Assembly (NCBI GenBank): GCA_028872015.1
Contig: JAGWLO010000002.1
Span: 1 to 64,000, forward strand
DNA length: 64,000 nucleotides
Reading direction: 5' to 3'
From: Burkholderiales bacterium
Lineage (GTDB): Bacteria; Pseudomonadota; Gammaproteobacteria; Burkholderiales; Burkholderiaceae_C
The first letter of the stretch is position 1, and each line of letters begins with the position of its first letter. Shown piece after piece: positions 9,042 through 47,179 of the stretch. Both the position numbers and the translations under genes were made by a program. The notes beneath the pieces were generated by a model, which was not told the DNA's origin, made no database searches, and worked only from the letters and a program-made list of their open reading frames with translations.

Positions 9042-12000
9042 ATGCGCCTCACCCAGATCAAGCTCGCCGGCTTCAAGTCCTTTGCCGAGCCGACCACGTT
9101 CCAGCTGCCGGGGCAGCTGGTGGGCGTGGTCGGCCCCAACGGCTGCGGCAAGAGCAACATCATGGACGCCGTGCGCTGGGTGCTGGGCGAGAGCAAGGCC
9201 AGCGAGCTGCGCGGCGAGAGCATGCAGGACGTGATCTTCAACGGCAGCGGCCAGCGCAAGCCCGCCAGCCGGGCGAGCGTGGAGCTGGTGTTCGACAACA
9301 CCCTGGCGCGTGCCGGCGGGCAGTGGAACAGCTTCGCCGAGATTGCCGTCAAGCGCGTGCTCACGCGCGACGGCAGCAGCAGCTACCACATCAACAACCA
9401 GCCCGTGCGCCGGCGCGACGTGCAGGACGTGTTCCTGGGCACCGGCCTGGGCCCGCGCGCCTACGCGATCATCGGCCAGGGCACGATCAGCCGCATCATC
9501 GAGAGCCGGCCCGAGGAGCTGCGGCTGTTCCTCGAAGAGGCGGCCGGAGTGAGCAAGTACAAGGAACGCCGCCGCGAGACGGAGAACCGGCTCAAGGACA
9601 CGCGCGAGAACCTGACCCGCGTCGAGGACATCCTGCGCGAGCTGAACGGCAACCTCGAGAAGCTCGAGGCCCAGGCCCAGGTGGCCGAGACCTACCGCCG
9701 GCTGCAGGACGAGGGCACGCTGAAGCTGCACCAGCTGTGGTTCCTGAAGCACCGCGACGCGGCCAGCGAGGAGGCGCGCGTCCAGGCCGCGGCGGCCGAG
9801 GCCACCAACGCGCTGGAGGCGCGCGTGGCCGAGCTGCGCCATGCCGAGGCCGAGCTCGAGCGCATCCGCCAGGCCCATTACGCCGCCAACGACGAGCTGC
9901 ACGCCAGGCAGGGCCTGCTCGGCGAGGCGGCGCTGGAGGTCAGCCGGCTCGAGGAGCGCATCCGCTACGTGGTCGAGGGCCGCCAGCGGGCCCAGGCCCG
10001 GCTGGCCGAGCTGCAGGCGCAGAACGCGCAATGGGCCGAACGCCAGCAGGCGGCGGGGGTCGAGCTGGACGAGATCGCGCTGCAGATCGAGGCCGCCGAC
10101 GAGCAGGCCGGCGTGCTGGCCGCGCAGGCCGAGGAGCAGGGCCTGGAGCTGCCGACGCTGGACGACGCGCTGCGCGCCGCGCAGGCCGCCAGCAACGCCC
10201 AGCGCCAGGCCGTCGCCCAGGTGCAGCAGCAGATCCAGGTGCTGGCGGCCGAGAGCCGCAGCATCGAGGAGCAGTCGCGCGCGCTGCGGGGCCGGCGCGA
10301 GCGCATGGCCGGCGAGCGCGCGGGTCTGCAGGCGCCCGACCTCGCGCGCATCGAGCAGCTGCAGGCGCAGGAGGCGGCCGCGAACGAGGCGCGCGAGACC
10401 GCTGACGCGCGCCTGCACGAGCTGTCGGAGCAGGTGCCCGAGCTCGACGAGCGGCGCCGGGCGGCGCAGGCCGCGGTCAACACCGAGTCGGCGCGGCTGG
10501 CCGACATCGGTGCCCGGCTCGAGGCGCTGCGGGCGCTGCAGCAGAAGGTGCAGACCGAAGGCAAGCTCAAGCCCTGGCTCGATCGGCACGGCCTGGCCGG
10601 CCTGCAGGGCCTGTGGACCCAGGTCCACATCGAGGCGGGCTGGGAGACGGCGCTGGAGGCGGCGTTGCGCGAGCGCCTGAATGCGCTGGCCGTCGGCCGG
10701 CTCGACAACGTGCGCGCCTTCGCCGCCGACGCGCCGCCGGCCAAGCTGGCGTTCTATGCGCTGCCGACAGGGGCGTTGGCGAATAGGCACCAGACGCTGC
10801 CGCGCCTGAGCGAGCGGCTGCGCCTGGCGAATGTTCACGAGACGGCCGGCCTGCAGGCGCTGCTGTCCGACTGGCTCGAAGGCGTCTACACCGCGGCCTC
10901 GATCGACGAGGCGCTGGCGGAGCGCGGCCGGCTCACCCACGGCGAAGTCATCATGACCCGCGAAGGCCATGCGGTGAGCCAGTTCGCCGTGGCCTTCTAC
11001 GCCCCCGATTCCGAGCAGGCCGGGATGCTGGCGCGGGCGCAGGAGATCGAGAACCTGGACCGCCAGCAGCGCGCGCAGGCGCTGATCGCCGACGAGGCCC
11101 GGAGCGCCTCGGTGCGCCTGGAGGCCGCCTACACGGAGGCCGCGCAGTCGCTGCAGACGGCGCGGCGCGAGGCCGCCGAGGCGCAGACCCGCGCCCACGC
11201 CCTGCATGTCGAGCTGCTGCGCCTGACGCAGCAGGCCGAGGCCGCCAGCGCCCGGCGCGAGCAGCTCGCCGACGAGCTGGCCGAGATCGATGCCCAGCTC
11301 GAGGCGCTGCAGGAGCGCCGCGCCACCGGCGAGGGCCGCTTCGAGGAGCTCGATGGCGAGCTCGCGAATGCGCAGGAACGGCATGCCGAGCTCGACGACG
11401 CGGTGATCGCCGCCGAGCGGCGGCTGGCCGATGCGCGCGAGCAGCAGCGGGCGCTGGAGCGCCAGGCCCAGGAAGCGCAGTTCCAGGCCCGCGCGCTGGC
11501 CGCGCGCCGGGGCGAGCTGCAACGCAGCATCGAGACCGCCGAGGCCCAGGTCGCGGCCAACCGGCAGGCGAGCGAGCAGCTGCAGCGCGAGCTGGGCAGC
11601 TTCGACGACGCGGCGGCGCAGTCGGGGCTGCAGGCGGCGCTGGCGCTGAAGCTCGAGCGCGAGCAGGCGCTGGGCCTGGCGCGCAGCAGCTATGACGACC
11701 TGAGCGCGCAGCTCAGGCGCGCCGACGAGCAGCGGCTGGGCTTCGAGCGCAGCCTGGCGCCGCTGCGCGAACAGATCACCAAGCTGCAGCTCGAGCTGCA
11801 GGCGGCACAGCTCGGCGGCGCCCAGTACCTGGAGCAGCTGGCGGCGGCCGAGGTCGATGTCGAGCGGCTCGCGAAGTCGATCGACGACGGTGGCGTCAAG
11901 CTGTGGGGGCTGCAGACCGAGATCGACCGCATCAACAAGGACATCAACGCCCTGGGTGCCGTCAACCTGGCCGCGCTCGACGAGCTGACCAGCGCGCGCG

Positions 12001-41668: not shown

Positions 41669-42343
41669 TCAGGCAGCGTGCGGCGGCGACTGCAGCGTCC
41701 GCTCCAGCCTGGTCACCAGGGCCTGGCGCGCGATGTCGGCGTGGCGGGCCGAGAGTTCGGCGGCGGCCGGGCCGTCGCCAGCGCGGATGGCCGCGCGGAT
41801 CGCTTCGTGCTCGTCCCAGATCCCCTCGCGGCTGCCGCTGTGCAGCAGCACCGCGCCCATCACACGGCGCAGGTGGATCCAGTGCAGCTGGGTGCTGGCG
41901 ACGATGTAAGGGTTGCCGCTGGCCTGGTAGATGGCGCCGTGGAAGGCGGTGTCGGCCTCGATCATCGCGCGCACGTCGGTGCCGGCGGCGGCGCGGCGGC
42001 CCGCGGCGACCAGCGCGGCCGGGATGTCGGCGCGGCGCTCGGCCGCCAGCTGCGCAGCCAGCGCGTCGAGCGCGCCGCGCACCTGGTAGAGCTGGCCGAT
42101 GCGGTGCGGCTGCAGCGGCGTGACCAGCAGGCCGCGCCCCGGCGCGTCCTCGAGCAGCCCGTCCTTCTTCAGCAGCCGCAGCGCCTGCAGCACCGGCGAG
42201 CGCGAGACGTTCAACTGCTCGGCCAGGTCTTCCTGCGTCACGCGCGCACCCGGGGCCAGGGTGCCGTCGCTGATGGCGTCGAGCAGCGTGCGGTAGACCG
42301 CATCGACGTAGTCGGTGCGGGCGGGGACTTTGGCCAGGCTCAT
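41669..42343 (-). CDS. GntR-family (FadR/FCD) regulator
   Basis: A 224-residue regulator starting MSLAKVPARTDYVDAV. The winged helix includes TQEDLAEQLNVSRSPVLQALRLL. The FCD domain has ligand/metal residues in DTAFHGAIYQASGN, WDEHEAIRAAI and ARHADIARQAL. It lies at the downstream end of the Rieske-oxygenase cluster, in the same direction but after a 131-bp gap containing an 11-bp tandem repeat. It probably controls the cluster through the TCTGTATACAGA palindrome before the oxygenase gene, which is inference. It is convergent with tRNA-Val. Confidence 0.92.
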   Translation of the reverse strand: MSLAKVPARTDYVDAVYRTLLDAISDGTLAPGARVTQEDLAEQLNVSRSPVLQALRLLKKDGLLEDAPGRGLLVTPLQPHRIGQLYQVRGALDALAAQLAAERRADIPAALVAAGRRAAAGTDVRAMIEADTAFHGAIYQASGNPYIVASTQLHWIHLRRVMGAVLLHSGSREGIWDEHEAIRAAIRAGDGPAAAELSARHADIARQALVTRLERTLQSPPHAA

Positions 42344-42399
42344 CGCAGTACCTTCGTGTTTCGCATGCCGGGATGCGTCCTTGGGGCGGCCCGGCGGGA

Positions 42400-42465
42400 T
42401 CATGGCGCGCTCATGGCGCGCTCATGGCGCCCTCGTGGCGCCCTCGTGGTGCCCTCGTGGTGCCC
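42400..42465. repeat. 11-bp tandem repeat, six units
   Basis: Six head-to-tail 11-bp units: TCATGGCGCGC twice, TCATGGCGCCC, TCGTGGCGCCC, and TCGTGGTGCCC twice. Substitutions change stepwise along the array, as expected for a growing minisatellite. It lies between the aldolase stop and the regulator start; the remaining intergenic bases hold nothing else recognisable. Confidence 0.9.
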
Positions 42466-42474
42466 TCCCGCGGG

Positions 42475-43287
42475 TCACTCGAACATGTCGGGCTGCGTCG
42501 CGGCCAGGTGGTCGTAGATGGGCTGGAAGTGCAGCCAGCCGATGTACTCCGAGCCCACATGCTGGCGGCTGTAGCGCGAGCGCTCGGGCGACACCAGCGC
42601 CGGCTTGTGGCCGCTGGCCTCGACGAGCAATTGCTGGCGACAGCAACGCTCGAGCGCGATGAACCAGAAGGCCGCCGCCTCGATGCTGTGGCGGCTGGCC
42701 GTGAGCAGGCCGTGGTTCTGGTGGATGGCGGCCTTCACGCCCTTGAACCAGTCGCACACCGCCATGCCGGCGCGCTCTTCCACCGCCACCTGGCCGGCCT
42801 CGTCCTTGATGACCACGTGGTCCTCGAAGAACGCCGCGGCGTCCTGCGAGATCGGCTCCAGCGGTCGGCCCAGGGCGGCGAAGGCCGTGCCGTACACCGT
42901 GTGCGCGTGGCACATCGACAGGATGTCGGGATGCGCCTCGTGCACCGCGGCGTGCAGCACGAAGCCGGCACGGTTGATGGCGTGCCGCCCCTGGACGACG
43001 CGGCCCTGGTGGTTGGCCAGGATGAGGTTGGAGACCCGCACCTGCGCGAAGTGCACGCACATCGGGTTGGTCCAGTACAGCTCGGGGTGCTCGGGGTCGC
43101 GGATCGTCAGGTGGCCGGCGAAGCCGTAGTCGAAGCCTTCCTGCGCGAACGCGCGGCAGGCCGCCACCAGGCGCTGCTGCCGGTGCAGCCGCTCGGCGGC
43201 GAGGCTGTCGAACTGCGGCACCTCGGGGTAGATCAGCCCGGGCTGCGTGGGCTGGTAGATCGAGTGGTTCTTCACTGGGTCGAGCAT
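42475..43287 (-). CDS. class II aldolase/adducin-family protein
   Basis: A 270-residue zinc-dependent aldolase/epimerase-fold protein. FAGHLTIRDPEHPELYWTNP, CHAHTVYGTAFAALG (metal His pair) and HQNHGLLTASRHSIE (further His) match the family. Members include fuculose aldolases, HMG-like decarboxylases and many uncharacterised catabolic enzymes, so the reaction is not known. It lies 24 bp after the reductase gene and is probably part of the oxygenase operon. It might act on the ring-derived or side-chain product. Confidence 0.88.
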   Translation of the reverse strand: MLDPVKNHSIYQPTQPGLIYPEVPQFDSLAAERLHRQQRLVAACRAFAQEGFDYGFAGHLTIRDPEHPELYWTNPMCVHFAQVRVSNLILANHQGRVVQGRHAINRAGFVLHAAVHEAHPDILSMCHAHTVYGTAFAALGRPLEPISQDAAAFFEDHVVIKDEAGQVAVEERAGMAVCDWFKGVKAAIHQNHGLLTASRHSIEAAAFWFIALERCCRQQLLVEASGHKPALVSPERSRYSRQHVGSEYIGWLHFQPIYDHLAATQPDMFE

Positions 43288-43311
43288 GGTGGGTCTTCCG
43301 TCCGTGCAGGG

Positions 43312-44307
43312 TCACAGGTCGAGCACGAGCAGCGGGCTGCGCGAGCGCGAGACGCAGGGTGTCATGCAGCGCCGGTGCTCGTCGTCGCTGAGGATGTAGT
43401 CGTTGTGTTCCACCTCGCCTTCGAGGTAGTCGGTCTTGCAGGAGCCGCACAGGCCCGACAGGCACGAGGTGGGTACGCGCAGGCCGGCCAGCTCGATGGC
43501 GCGCACGATGGTCTGCTCGGGCTCGACCCGCAGGCGGATGCCGCGCCGCGCCAGCAGCACCTCGAAGCCGCCGGTGGGCGTGGCCGGTACCGCCGCCGTG
43601 GCGGGCGGCTTGAAGTGCTCGAAGTGCACGCTGCCGGCGGGCCAGTGGCGGCTGGCGTCGGCGCAGGCCTGCATGAAGCCGGCCGGGCCGCAGTAGTACA
43701 GGTGCGTGCCGGCTGCCGGGTGCGCCAGCAGGGCCGTGATGTCCAGGCCCTGCGACGGATCGCCGCCATCGCAATGCGCATGCAGGCGGCCGGCCGGCAC
43801 GAAGGCGCGCAGCTCGGTGGCGAAGGCCGCGTGGCGCGGGCTGCGCACGCAGTGGTGGAGTTCGAACGAAGCGCCCTGCGCCGCCAGCGCGTGGGCCATC
43901 GCCTTCAAGGGCGTGATGCCGATGCCGCCGCCCAGCAGCACGGTGTGGGCGGCGCCGGGCACGAGCGCGAAGGCGTTGCGCGGCATGCTCACCGGCAGGA
44001 AGTCGCCCACGCGCACCTGCTCGTGCAGCGTGCGCGATCCGCCGCGGCCCTCGGTCTCGCGCAGCACGCCCAGCAGCCAGTGCGTGCGCTCGTGCGGGTC
44101 GCCGGCCAGCGAGTACGAGCGCACGAGCCCGCCGGGCAGGTGCACGTCGACATGCGCGCCCGCCGCAAAGCCGGGCAGCGGCGTGCCATCGGCGCTGGCC
44201 AGCTCGAAGGCGTGCGTGCGCTCGGCCAGCAGTCGGATCGCGCGCACCTGCAGGCGCAGCAGGTCGTGCGCGCCGGCATCGGCGCCTGCGCTCGTCGGGG
44301 CGTTCAT
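43312..44307 (-). CDS. PDR/VanB-type oxidoreductase (reductase partner)
   Basis: Electron-transfer reductase of 331 residues for a Rieske oxygenase. It has an FMN domain (RSYSLAGDPHERTHW), an NADH domain (LLGGGIGITPLKAMAHAL; YYCGPAGFM) and a C-terminal plant-type [2Fe-2S] ferredoxin with cysteines in CLSGLCGSC and RRCMTPC. This order is that of phthalate dioxygenase reductase and VanB. The ATG overlaps the oxygenase stop (ATGA), giving coupled synthesis of the two components. Confidence 0.93.
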   Translation of the reverse strand: MNAPTSAGADAGAHDLLRLQVRAIRLLAERTHAFELASADGTPLPGFAAGAHVDVHLPGGLVRSYSLAGDPHERTHWLLGVLRETEGRGGSRTLHEQVRVGDFLPVSMPRNAFALVPGAAHTVLLGGGIGITPLKAMAHALAAQGASFELHHCVRSPRHAAFATELRAFVPAGRLHAHCDGGDPSQGLDITALLAHPAAGTHLYYCGPAGFMQACADASRHWPAGSVHFEHFKPPATAAVPATPTGGFEVLLARRGIRLRVEPEQTIVRAIELAGLRVPTSCLSGLCGSCKTDYLEGEVEHNDYILSDDEHRRCMTPCVSRSRSPLLVLDL

Positions 44308-45845
44308 GCCAGCCGCCGTGCCAGCACGTCCTGCTGCAGGGCCTCCATGCGCAGGCTGACGAAGGCCTGGCGTGCGCTGCCCTTCAGGGGCTCGGCCTCG
44401 GTGAGGATGGCCACCACCTGACGCGCGAGGTGCCGGCGCAACGCCACCTCTTCCTCGGTGGTGCGGCCCAGCGGCAGGTCGAACACATTGCCCGAGCAGT
44501 AGCTGGCGGGCGCACCGGCGTTGTCGCGCAGCCACTGCGCAAACGCCGCCGGTGCAGCGCGCGGGTTGCTGCCGCGCACGGCGTCGCGCAGCAGCTTGCG
44601 GAACATGTACACGCCGGCGTCGAACTTGGTGGGGTTCTCCAGCGCGTGCACGGCGATCGGGCGCTGGCTGGTGATGGCCTCGTAGTCGCCCGGGGCGCGC
44701 TGGCAGGCCTTGTAGTTGGCACGGGCACGCGGGTCGGCCGGGATCGGCGGCATGTCCTCGAGCTTGTACTGGCCGAAGCGCTCGGGACGGCGCATCGCCA
44801 CCTGGCCTTCGAGGAAGTCGATGGTCTCGTAGCCCACCAGGCCCTTGTCGCCGACGCCGCGCGTGTCGATGCCCGGGCCCATGACGCGCCAGCCCAGCAT
44901 CTTGGCGTTGTGGTCGTCCACCGGCACGGTCCAGCGGATCATGTGGAAGCGGCTGAACAGCTTCTTGCGCTTGCCGTCCTCGGAGGTGTAGGCGTGCAGG
45001 CTCAGGTTGGGCAGCACCTGGTGCTGCACGCGGATGAACATGTGCCCGTCGTCGGCGCGGCGCGCGCCGGCGCAGGCCAGGCTGCGGCCGCCCTGCACGG
45101 GCACGAAGTGCATGTCCGGCGGCACCTCCATCGAGGCCGCACCCACCTCGTCGAAGGTGGTGCCCTGGTAGTGCTCGCCCGTCACCTGGCGCTTGGCGTG
45201 CAGCGCCATGGTGTGGAAGTTGTCGGCCGCGTTGTCCTGCACCTGCAGCCAGTTGCAGTGCTGGAAGTTGCTGTAGGGCACGAGCTCGTCGCCCTCGGCC
45301 ACGGTGAAGTTGCCTTCCCATTCGGGGAACGGCGGCTCCTCGTCCGGCGGCCCCATGTAGGCGAACACCAGGCCGTGGCGCTCGAAGGCCTTGTAGGCGC
45401 CCTGGCGGATCGAGCAACGGTAGCGCTCGCCTTCGGCCTCCTCGCCCGCGGGGAAGGGCACGCGCAGGCAGGTGCCGTCGATGTCGAACTGCATGCCGTG
45501 GTAGCAGCACGAGATGCCGTGCTGCTCGATCTTGCCGTACTCGAGCGAGGCGCCGCGGTGCACGCAATGCGCATGCAGCACACCGACCCGGCCGCTGCCG
45601 TCGCGGAAGGCCACCAGCTCTTCGCCCAGGATCTTCAGGTAGCGCGGCGTGTCGGTCAGCTCCATCGCCATGCACACCGGGTGCCAGAAGCGGCGCATGT
45701 ACTCGCCCAGCGGCGTGCCGGGGCCGGTCTCGGTGAGCTCGGGGTCGTGGCCGGGCACGCGGTTGCTGAAGTAGCCGCCGTAGGGCACGAGCCTGTTCTG
45801 GACGGCTGAATCGGGCAGCGGGGCGTTCTGGTCGCGGGTGTTCAT
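44304..45845 (-). CDS. Rieske [2Fe-2S] aromatic-ring oxygenase, catalytic subunit
   Basis: Non-heme iron oxygenase of 513 residues. The Rieske ligands are Cys94-x-His96 and Cys112-x2-His115 (CVHRGASLEYG, CCYHGMQFD). The mononuclear iron region reads NWLQVQDNAADNFHTMALH. The start MNTRDQNAPLPDSAV was taken at 45845. It is longer than vanillate demethylase (about 350) and resembles the phthalate-dioxygenase-like homomeric group. The substrate is unknown; a dioxygenase or O-demethylase is equally possible. First gene of the operon, with a palindromic operator 23 bp upstream. Confidence 0.92.
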   Translation of the reverse strand: MNTRDQNAPLPDSAVQNRLVPYGGYFSNRVPGHDPELTETGPGTPLGEYMRRFWHPVCMAMELTDTPRYLKILGEELVAFRDGSGRVGVLHAHCVHRGASLEYGKIEQHGISCCYHGMQFDIDGTCLRVPFPAGEEAEGERYRCSIRQGAYKAFERHGLVFAYMGPPDEEPPFPEWEGNFTVAEGDELVPYSNFQHCNWLQVQDNAADNFHTMALHAKRQVTGEHYQGTTFDEVGAASMEVPPDMHFVPVQGGRSLACAGARRADDGHMFIRVQHQVLPNLSLHAYTSEDGKRKKLFSRFHMIRWTVPVDDHNAKMLGWRVMGPGIDTRGVGDKGLVGYETIDFLEGQVAMRRPERFGQYKLEDMPPIPADPRARANYKACQRAPGDYEAITSQRPIAVHALENPTKFDAGVYMFRKLLRDAVRGSNPRAAPAAFAQWLRDNAGAPASYCSGNVFDLPLGRTTEEEVALRRHLARQVVAILTEAEPLKGSARQAFVSLRMEALQQDVLARRLA

Positions 45846-45867
45846 CGGCGTCCGGGAATGGTTGAAC

Positions 45868-45879
45868 TCTGTATACAGA
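45868..45879. promoter_or_regulatory. operator-like palindrome TCTGTATACAGA
   Basis: Perfect 12-bp palindrome centred on TGTATACA, 23 bp before the oxygenase ATG, in an A/T-rich patch of an otherwise G/C-rich 194-bp gap. TGTATACA cores are typical for GntR/FCD regulators such as the one encoded at the end of this operon. It may also affect the divergent diguanylate cyclase gene. Confidence 0.72.
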
Positions 45880-46039: not shown

Positions 46040-47179
46040 ATGCCCACCTCCGCACCCGCCGCCCTGTCTGCCGAGCCCGCCGAGCCCATCGAGGCCCCGG
46101 CGCGCCACCCTGCCGCGACGCGGGCGCGCGGCGCGGCGCGGCTGACGCTGCTGGCCCTGGCCGTCTACGGCCTGTTCGCGGGCAGCGTGTGGCTGCAGGT
46201 GCGGCTGGGCCTGATGGCCGCCACGCCGGCGGCCTGGTACTGCGCCGTCAGTCTGCTGGGCATCGGCGTGTTCTACGGCCTGGTGCGCAGCGGACTCAGC
46301 CTGCGCCTGAGCCCCGATCGCTCGATGACGATGGCGCAATCGGTCTTCGGCGTGCTGATGACGACCTGGGGCTACGCCATCGATGCACCGCTGCGCGGCG
46401 CGATCGTCGCCATCATGCTGCTGAACCTGGTGTGGGGCATGTTCGTGCTGTCGTCGCGACAGGCCCTGTCGCTGTGCCTGCTGGCGCTCGGTCTGCTGGC
46501 CGCGACGATGGTCTGGAAGAGCCGCACCGATGCGCTGAACTACCCGCCGGTGATCGAGGCCTTCCACTTCTTCTTCTGTGCCGTCTTGCTGTCGGCGATG
46601 TCGATGCTTTCCATCAGCATGGGCCGCTTGCGCCACAAGCTGACCACGCGCACGGCGGCCCTGCAGGCCGCACTCGAGAAGATCCAGACCCTGGCCCGCG
46701 TCGACGAGCTGACGCAGCTGCACAACCGCCGCCACCTCGGCGAACTGCTCGCCGTCGAGCGCAACCGGCAGGCGCGCAGCGGCCAGCCCCTGACGATGAT
46801 CATGCTCGACCTGGACCACTTCAAGGCCGTCAACGACAGCCATGGCCATGCCGCCGGCGACACCGTGCTGCGGCGTTTCGCGGCCTCGATCCGGCCGCTG
46901 CTGCGCGGCGGTGACCTGGTCGGGCGCTGGGGTGGCGAGGAGTTCCTGCTCGTCATGCCCGGCACCCCGGTCGAGGCCGGCGTCGAGCTGGTCCAGCGGC
47001 TGCGGCAGGTGCTGCGGCAGCTGGCCTTCGACGACATCGCGCCCGGGCTGCGCATGTCGTTCTCGGCCGGGGTGACGGCCTGCGCACCGGGCGAGCCTAC
47101 GCACCTGGCGGTCGAACGCGCCGACCGCGCGCTGTACCGCGCCAAGGCCGAAGGCCGCGGCCGCACCGCGATCGGCTGA
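46040..47179 (+). CDS. membrane-bound diguanylate cyclase (GGDEF)
   Basis: Makes cyclic di-GMP; 379 residues. The N-terminal half has about five or six hydrophobic segments (for example LTLLALAVYGLFAGSVWLQV, AFHFFFCAVLLSAMSMLSI) with no recognised ligand domain. The GGDEF domain starts near residue 215 (VDELTQLHNRRHL). The active site is GGEEF near residue 298, preceded at the correct spacing by RGGD, an RxxD inhibitory site, so product inhibition is expected. No EAL domain. It diverges from the oxygenase operon. Confidence 0.93.
   Translation: MPTSAPAALSAEPAEPIEAPARHPAATRARGAARLTLLALAVYGLFAGSVWLQVRLGLMAATPAAWYCAVSLLGIGVFYGLVRSGLSLRLSPDRSMTMAQSVFGVLMTTWGYAIDAPLRGAIVAIMLLNLVWGMFVLSSRQALSLCLLALGLLAATMVWKSRTDALNYPPVIEAFHFFFCAVLLSAMSMLSISMGRLRHKLTTRTAALQAALEKIQTLARVDELTQLHNRRHLGELLAVERNRQARSGQPLTMIMLDLDHFKAVNDSHGHAAGDTVLRRFAASIRPLLRGGDLVGRWGGEEFLLVMPGTPVEAGVELVQRLRQVLRQLAFDDIAPGLRMSFSAGVTACAPGEPTHLAVERADRALYRAKAEGRGRTAIG

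Follow-up and report, generated by a model that had tools for sequence, protein, structure and literature searches.

Organization of the locus

The 64-kb window considered here (positions 1 to 64,000 of contig JAGWLO010000002.1, from a Burkholderiales bacterium with a 3.8-Mb genome) carries genes for a Rieske oxygenase (OXY), a phthalate dioxygenase reductase (PDR)-type reductase (RED), a protein of the class II aldolase/adducin fold (ALD), and a GntR/FCD regulator (REG). The four genes are co-directional and follow one another in the order OXY-RED-ALD-REG (Table 1). The ATG of RED and the stop codon of OXY overlap by 4 bp, RED and ALD are separated by 24 bp, and a terminator scan found no terminator-like site within the operon region. 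A palindrome, TCTGTATACAGA, is located 22 bp upstream of the OXY start codon. The four genes form one compact unit with a local regulator and a predicted operator. A 513-residue oxygenase, a PDR-type reductase, a class II aldolase, a terminal GntR/FCD regulator, and a perfect palindrome in front of them had been described in a sequence-only reading of this DNA, and gene calls and Pfam searches recover all of these elements where they had been placed.

Table 1. Features of the operon and of its surroundings in the 64-kb window.
Feature	Description	Position	Strand	Support
OXY	Rieske oxygenase, 513 aa	44304-45845	minus	Pfam Rieske 8e-17
RED	PDR-type reductase, 331 aa; flavin, NADH, and C-terminal 2Fe-2S domains	43312-44307	minus	Pfam Fer2 and NAD-binding
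ALD	Class II aldolase/adducin-fold metal enzyme, 270 aa	42475-43287	minus	Pfam Aldolase_II 3e-37
REG	GntR/FCD regulator	41669-42403	minus	Pfam GntR 3e-15, FCD 3e-22
Operator	Perfect palindrome TCTGTATACAGA, predicted REG site at the OXY promoter	45868-45879	unstranded	
Diguanylate cyclase gene	GGDEF protein, divergent from OXY	46040-47179		
Tandem repeat	11-bp unit TCATGGCGCCC, 6.2 copies, 94% matches, in the ALD-REG gap	42400-42467		
tRNA-like gene	98 nt, four-base anticodon gcag; probably a false call	9644-9741	minus	ARAGORN

The operator lies within the 194-bp gap that separates OXY from the diguanylate cyclase gene. Downstream of the operon is a convergent tRNA-Val gene, and tRNA was the only match of an Rfam scan. 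The tandem repeat and the odd tRNA-like gene are listed for completeness.

Conservation and gene layouts in relatives

A scan of GTDB genomes returned 158 candidate relatives, from which 80 loci with 72-93% identity to OXY were kept. Where a record names a group, it is nearly always a betaproteobacterial one, for example Rubrivivax, Aquabacterium, Limnohabitans, Hydrogenophaga, Methylibium, Caballeronia, Massilia, Achromobacter, Advenella, or Polynucleobacter. RED is linked to OXY in 79 of these loci, ALD in 73, and REG in 67. At the level of the family, all 12 genomes with a close OXY also carry ALD, which is present in 27 of 401 genomes (P = 6e-16, phylogeny ignored); ALD without a close OXY occurs in 15 of the 401.

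The layout of the window, OXY-RED-ALD-REG in a single direction, is one of the two commonest and is found in 19 loci. The other, also with 19 loci, is a split layout, LysR<>ALD-MFS and REG<>OXY-RED, where MFS denotes a major facilitator superfamily transporter. More generally, a LysR gene is present in 46 of the 80 loci and is usually divergent from ALD. The sequence-only reading had held that separate expression of the aldolase would speak against a common unit. This applies in part to relatives, in many of which ALD has its own divergent LysR gene and no GntR site. In the clade of the window, ALD is inside the operon. In Polynucleobacter-type and similar loci (L066-L098), RED is represented by a stand-alone ferredoxin domain of about 75-110 residues adjoining OXY; since only the ferredoxin part of RED is present, the flavin reductase must come from elsewhere.

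No description of a cluster associating a Rieske oxygenase, a class II aldolase, and either a GntR regulator or a ketol-acid reductoisomerase was found in the open-access literature. The view that the compact unit, with its local GntR/FCD regulator and operator, is uncharacterised in libraries and in that literature is thus upheld. Each component is of a known kind; for the combination, its wide conservation, and the operator, no description was found in the open-access literature.

The regulator and its operator

REG combines a GntR helix-turn-helix and an FCD domain, and a palindrome with a GT..AC core co-occurs with it, as is the case for GntR/FCD regulators of the FadR subfamily. Operator boxes of this subfamily follow the pattern TKGT/ACMA (PMC4494728), which TCTGTATACAGA fits. 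Because most orthologue matches start near residue 20 of the called protein, the true start of REG is probably the ATG at 42343 (MSLAKVPARTD...).

With up to two mismatches, TCTGTATACAGA has a single match in the window, for 0.14 expected. With up to one mismatch it is the sole site in the 3.8-Mb genome, and a stricter pattern gives the same result. Across the 80 orthologous loci (1.3 Mb), 57 of 69 TGTATACA cores are located within 260 bp upstream of OXY. When up to one mismatch is allowed, and bearing in mind that related loci are not independent, 69 of 81 loci have a site ahead of the OXY transcription unit, as compared with 38 of 1620 random 340-bp windows taken from these loci (Fisher 6e-82); the site is there in 66 of the 68 loci with REG versus 3 of the 13 without it (Fisher 9e-9). 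The three loci having an operator and no REG are L030, L039, and L046. In L030 and L039, the contig is short and stops not far beyond OXY, so that REG may have been lost to its end; L046 is longer, and no REG was found there.

The position of the site is also informative. In three loci (L063, L072, L075), ilvC is the first gene and the operator is placed before it. Polynucleobacter-type loci without REG have no operator, whereas sister loci with REG carry one. Hence, the operator tracks the presence of REG and moves in front of ilvC when ilvC comes first, which indicates that operator and regulator belong together. Some relatives show a TTGACA-like hexamer upstream and a -10-like hexamer directly adjoining the palindrome; such an arrangement suits repression. 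From these comparisons, we predict with strong confidence that REG regulates the operon at the palindrome.

Among 56 distinct relatives (L024-L103), 26 have a second element, GTTTACC or GGGT(n2-4)CC, at a nearly constant distance of 40-43 bp before the operator, versus 53 of 1680 control windows. It may be the site of an unknown activator. The window has no clear copy at this spacing.

OXY and RED probably belong with the MdpJ/MdpK system

OXY contains the Rieske motif (C94-x-H96 and C113-x-x-H116) and the iron site D208-x2-H211-x4-H216 of Rieske non-heme iron oxygenases. These seven residues (C94, H96, C113, H116, D208, H211, H216) are invariant in 26 orthologues, and the third iron ligand is probably D387. 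NCBIfam offers no equivalog name for OXY, the best score being 44 bits for a cut-off of 600.

Solved structures match OXY with about 130 bits at best (9ina, a Rieske protein, and 7fhr, a phthalate dioxygenase), as compared with 333 bits (phmmer) for MdpJ, an oxygenase of Methylibium petroleiphilum PM1. The corresponding plasmid pair, MPE_RS22205/22200, shows 39.6% identity over 490 aa to OXY and 47% to RED. It is the sole OXY match on the PM1 plasmid and has a 3-hydroxybutyryl-CoA dehydrogenase gene nearby. The order described for PM1 is tert-butyl alcohol (TBA) hydroxylase Mpe_B0555, iron-sulfur oxidoreductase Mpe_B0554, and Mpe_B0547 (PMC4517660); from this order we infer that the pair is Mpe_B0555/B0554, that is, MdpJ/MdpK. 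That the oxygenase is called MdpJ and acts as a tertiary-alcohol hydroxylase and desaturase is taken from titles cited in PMC7176365 and PMC4517660. A tree sets OXY, its paralogues, and MdpJ apart from phthalate-type structures with a support of 100/99, although the rows for the structures are incomplete and have long branches.

Judged by these alignments, MdpJ, a tert-butyl-alcohol monooxygenase, is the closest characterised oxygenase to OXY. Both systems have two components, a Rieske oxygenase and a PDR reductase, encoded by adjacent genes. They differ in that the PM1 locus has neither ALD nor REG nearby, and OXY has an extra insertion of about 24 residues ahead of the PGDYEAI motif. OXY and RED are thus very probably a Rieske monooxygenase system of the MdpJ clade. 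The sequence-only reading had proposed a ring-hydroxylating system responding to aromatic acids. The grouping of OXY with MdpJ, apart from phthalate dioxygenase structures, does not favor this proposal; the features expected of a phthalate-type ring-hydroxylating dioxygenase are not seen, MdpJ being closer and no ring-cleavage gene being recognised among the neighbours examined. On balance, we lean slightly toward a non-aromatic substrate. Tandem OXY-like genes (57-61% identity) were also seen at L161 and L163, in a different bacterial family of the same class; they have no RED, ALD, or REG adjoining.

ALD, an aldolase-fold protein close to NovR

ALD is a member of the PRK06208 subfamily (377 bits for a cut-off of 255). 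A profile search retrieved 4xxf (1e-65), NovR (1e-62, about 40% identity over nearly the full length), TqaM (1e-44), and E. coli FucA (5e-8). ALD falls in the NovR/CloR sequence subfamily, together with 4xxf and TqaM. It has the three-histidine metal site of FucA-type enzymes, its ligands H127, H129, and H192 being invariant in 24 orthologues. However, alignment to E. coli FucA shows that equivalents of Glu73 and Tyr113 are absent; R106-A107-G108 and Q148 are there instead, also invariant. The earlier description of the third enzyme as a class II aldolase fits the fold and the metal histidines but is weakened by the loss of the Glu/Tyr pair of FucA, which is missing in 24/24 aligned orthologues, and by the nearest enzyme of known function, which is NovR.

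Within the limits of such comparisons, NovR is the closest enzyme of known function to ALD. NovR and CloR are three-histidine Fe(II) oxidative decarboxylases (PMC13111500). ALD shares with NovR/CloR and TqaM the motifs HxHTVYG, QDA..FFEDH, and NHGL as well as the absence of FucA Glu73. Unlike ALD, which is encoded in a Rieske operon, NovR is biosynthetic and acts on prenylated hydroxyphenylpyruvate. A further parallel is the pyruvic oxime dioxygenase (POD) of Alcaligenes faecalis, an Fe(II) dioxygenase built on the class II aldolase fold that retains three histidines and has lost Glu73 and Tyr113, with other residues standing in for them (PMC5216522, PMC11841055). Since such replacement occurs in POD, the absence of both residues is not in itself proof that ALD has lost aldolase chemistry. 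The structures 8il8, 8iqa, and 8ix6, labelled "Aldolase" and assigned to POD by inference, are distant from ALD (5e-20 to 4e-18). Taken together, we favor, with moderate confidence, a decarboxylase or an oxygenative C-C lyase over an aldolase.

The sequence-only reading regarded the aldolase partner as unusual for ring-hydroxylating systems. Class II aldolase-type partners in oxygenase pathways do have a precedent in DhbB (cited in PMC6362003). PhtC and DhbB are, as ALD may be, aldolase-fold decarboxylases acting downstream of an oxygenase. An identification of ALD with PhtC, the 3,4-dihydroxyphthalate decarboxylase, was rejected at 26.7 bits, far under the cut-off of 200 of NCBIfam NF053537.

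In genome G115, an unrelated class II aldolase-like gene (L159:8112-8834, 25% to ALD) adjoins REG-OXY-RED, and the ALD orthologue is elsewhere, beside a LysR gene.

Neighbouring genes and IlvC paralogues

The loci of relatives contain additional genes. An ACS-type MFS transporter is nearest to the HpaX model, below its cut-off; TRAP genes are also found, and Polynucleobacter-type loci have a PanE-like reductase gene. Eight loci (L040, L063, L072, L073, L075, L079, L158, L164) contain ilvC. The encoded protein is a true ketol-acid reductoisomerase paralogue (534 bits to PRK05479), and genomes with a cluster ilvC also hold a second, housekeeping ilvC. In a tree, cluster IlvC proteins occupy at least three separate positions (Alcaligenes/Caballeronia; Methylibium and two other genomes; Duganella), which rules out a single origin for all copies. 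On this phylogeny, the paralogue has entered the cluster on at least three occasions. One IlvC, close to the 31A locus of Polynucleobacter, falls among the housekeeping genes in the tree and was not counted as recruited. That recruitment happened repeatedly suggests that a reductoisomerase-like or 2-oxo-acid reductase step really takes place; alternatively, the recruited IlvC could be an insensitive copy guarding against a toxic compound. Genes such as MaiA and TctC, which lie close to some loci, have the look of ordinary local synteny and were left out of the analysis.

Proposed function and alternatives

We propose that the operon is a substrate-inducible catabolic unit of Burkholderiales, dedicated to an organic acid. 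REG, bound to TCTGTATACAGA just downstream of the OXY -10 region or overlapping it, would repress OXY-RED-ALD-REG; the site and its partnership with REG come from comparative genomics. The organic acid, imported in relatives via the HpaX-like MFS or TRAP transporters, would bind the FCD domain and cause the release of REG. RED would carry electrons from NAD(P)H to OXY, and OXY would hydroxylate the acid, more probably at an aliphatic or branched position than on an aromatic ring if its clade is a guide to its substrate. ALD would then break a C-C bond of the OXY product, most likely by a decarboxylation that is possibly O2-dependent, as its subfamily suggests. Finally, the ketol-acid reductoisomerase or the PanE-like reductase of relatives would point to a branched 2-oxo or hydroxy acid intermediate. 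As a whole, a REG-repressed catabolic operon with an MdpJ-clade OXY and a NovR-type ALD is the explanation that we consider reasonably likely. A more specific version is a natural branched hydroxy/oxo acid pathway, in which OXY would hydroxylate at or beside a tertiary carbon, ALD would carry out an Fe(II) oxidative decarboxylation, and IlvC, in several lineages, would perform an alkyl shift or a reduction; this version is speculative and unlikely.

Several observations weigh against the proposed operon function. An identity of about 39% to MdpJ is too low for substrate transfer, and AlphaFold models, based on alignments of close orthologues only, have pLDDT values of 52 for ALD and 47 for OXY. 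The top PDB match of ALD, 4xxf, is labelled fuculose-1-phosphate aldolase, which would fit a lyase role. In sugar-acid-like clusters, ALD is found apart from OXY, so that its role may be broader: such relatives (56% identity) are accompanied by RraA, Ldh, aldehyde dehydrogenase, TRAP, and glycerate kinase genes, some of them on plasmids. The reductoisomerase is not in the operon of the window and is present in 7 of the 80 loci. Moreover, NovR acts on an aromatic substrate and the MFS of relatives is nearest to HpaX, the 4-hydroxyphenylacetate permease; both keep aromatic acids in play.

These last points lead to an aromatic-acid pathway, in which OXY and RED would be a phthalate-type ring-hydroxylating (di)oxygenase and ALD would decarboxylate a dihydroxylated ring, as PhtC does with 3,4-dihydroxyphthalate. 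The best solved-structure matches of OXY (9ina and phthalate dioxygenases) and the resemblance of RED to phthalate dioxygenase reductase (best PDB match 2pia, 5e-70) agree with such a pathway, as do the class II aldolase-type decarboxylases of aromatic routes cited in PMC6362003. MdpJ is, however, far closer to OXY than these structures, ALD scores far below the PhtC model, and the neighbours examined include no recognised ring-cleavage dioxygenase, so that we regard this pathway as unlikely. An O- or N-demethylase comparable to VanAB with VanR, in which the Rieske monooxygenase takes off a methyl group and the GntR/FCD repressor senses an aromatic substrate, would have the same set of Rieske oxygenase, PDR reductase, and GntR/FCD regulator. 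VanAB/VanR also has a GTATAC-core palindrome fitting FadR-subfamily sites, and several structural relatives of OXY are demethylases (NdmA, dicamba demethylase). Yet OXY, with its 513 residues, differs from VanAB in length and family and is below every equivalog cut-off, ALD and the reductoisomerase are left unexplained, and no formaldehyde-handling genes were recognised adjoining the operon; a demethylase is highly unlikely. Finally, ALD could be an ordinary metal-dependent aldolase, or a passenger with a LysR-controlled role of its own, loosely tied to OXY. The frequent divergent LysR genes, the genomes and sugar-acid-like plasmid clusters that have ALD without a close OXY, and the label of 4xxf would fit; the missing equivalents of FucA Glu73 and Tyr113, the presence of ALD in nearly all OXY loci and in every close-OXY genome, and its place inside the operon in the clade of the window make this very unlikely.

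Significance

The REG-controlled operon is a widespread, unnamed catabolic unit of soil and freshwater betaproteobacteria, and its regulator-operator pair is clear enough for direct testing. It joins two poorly understood groups, the MdpJ-like Rieske oxygenases, encountered with fuel-ether pollutants, and aldolase-fold proteins that are maybe Fe(II) oxygenases or decarboxylases. Once solved, the substrate would mend many records named just "Rieske domain protein" or "class II aldolase". If true, the branched-acid pathway would be the natural counterpart of the pollutant-degrading MdpJ enzymes.

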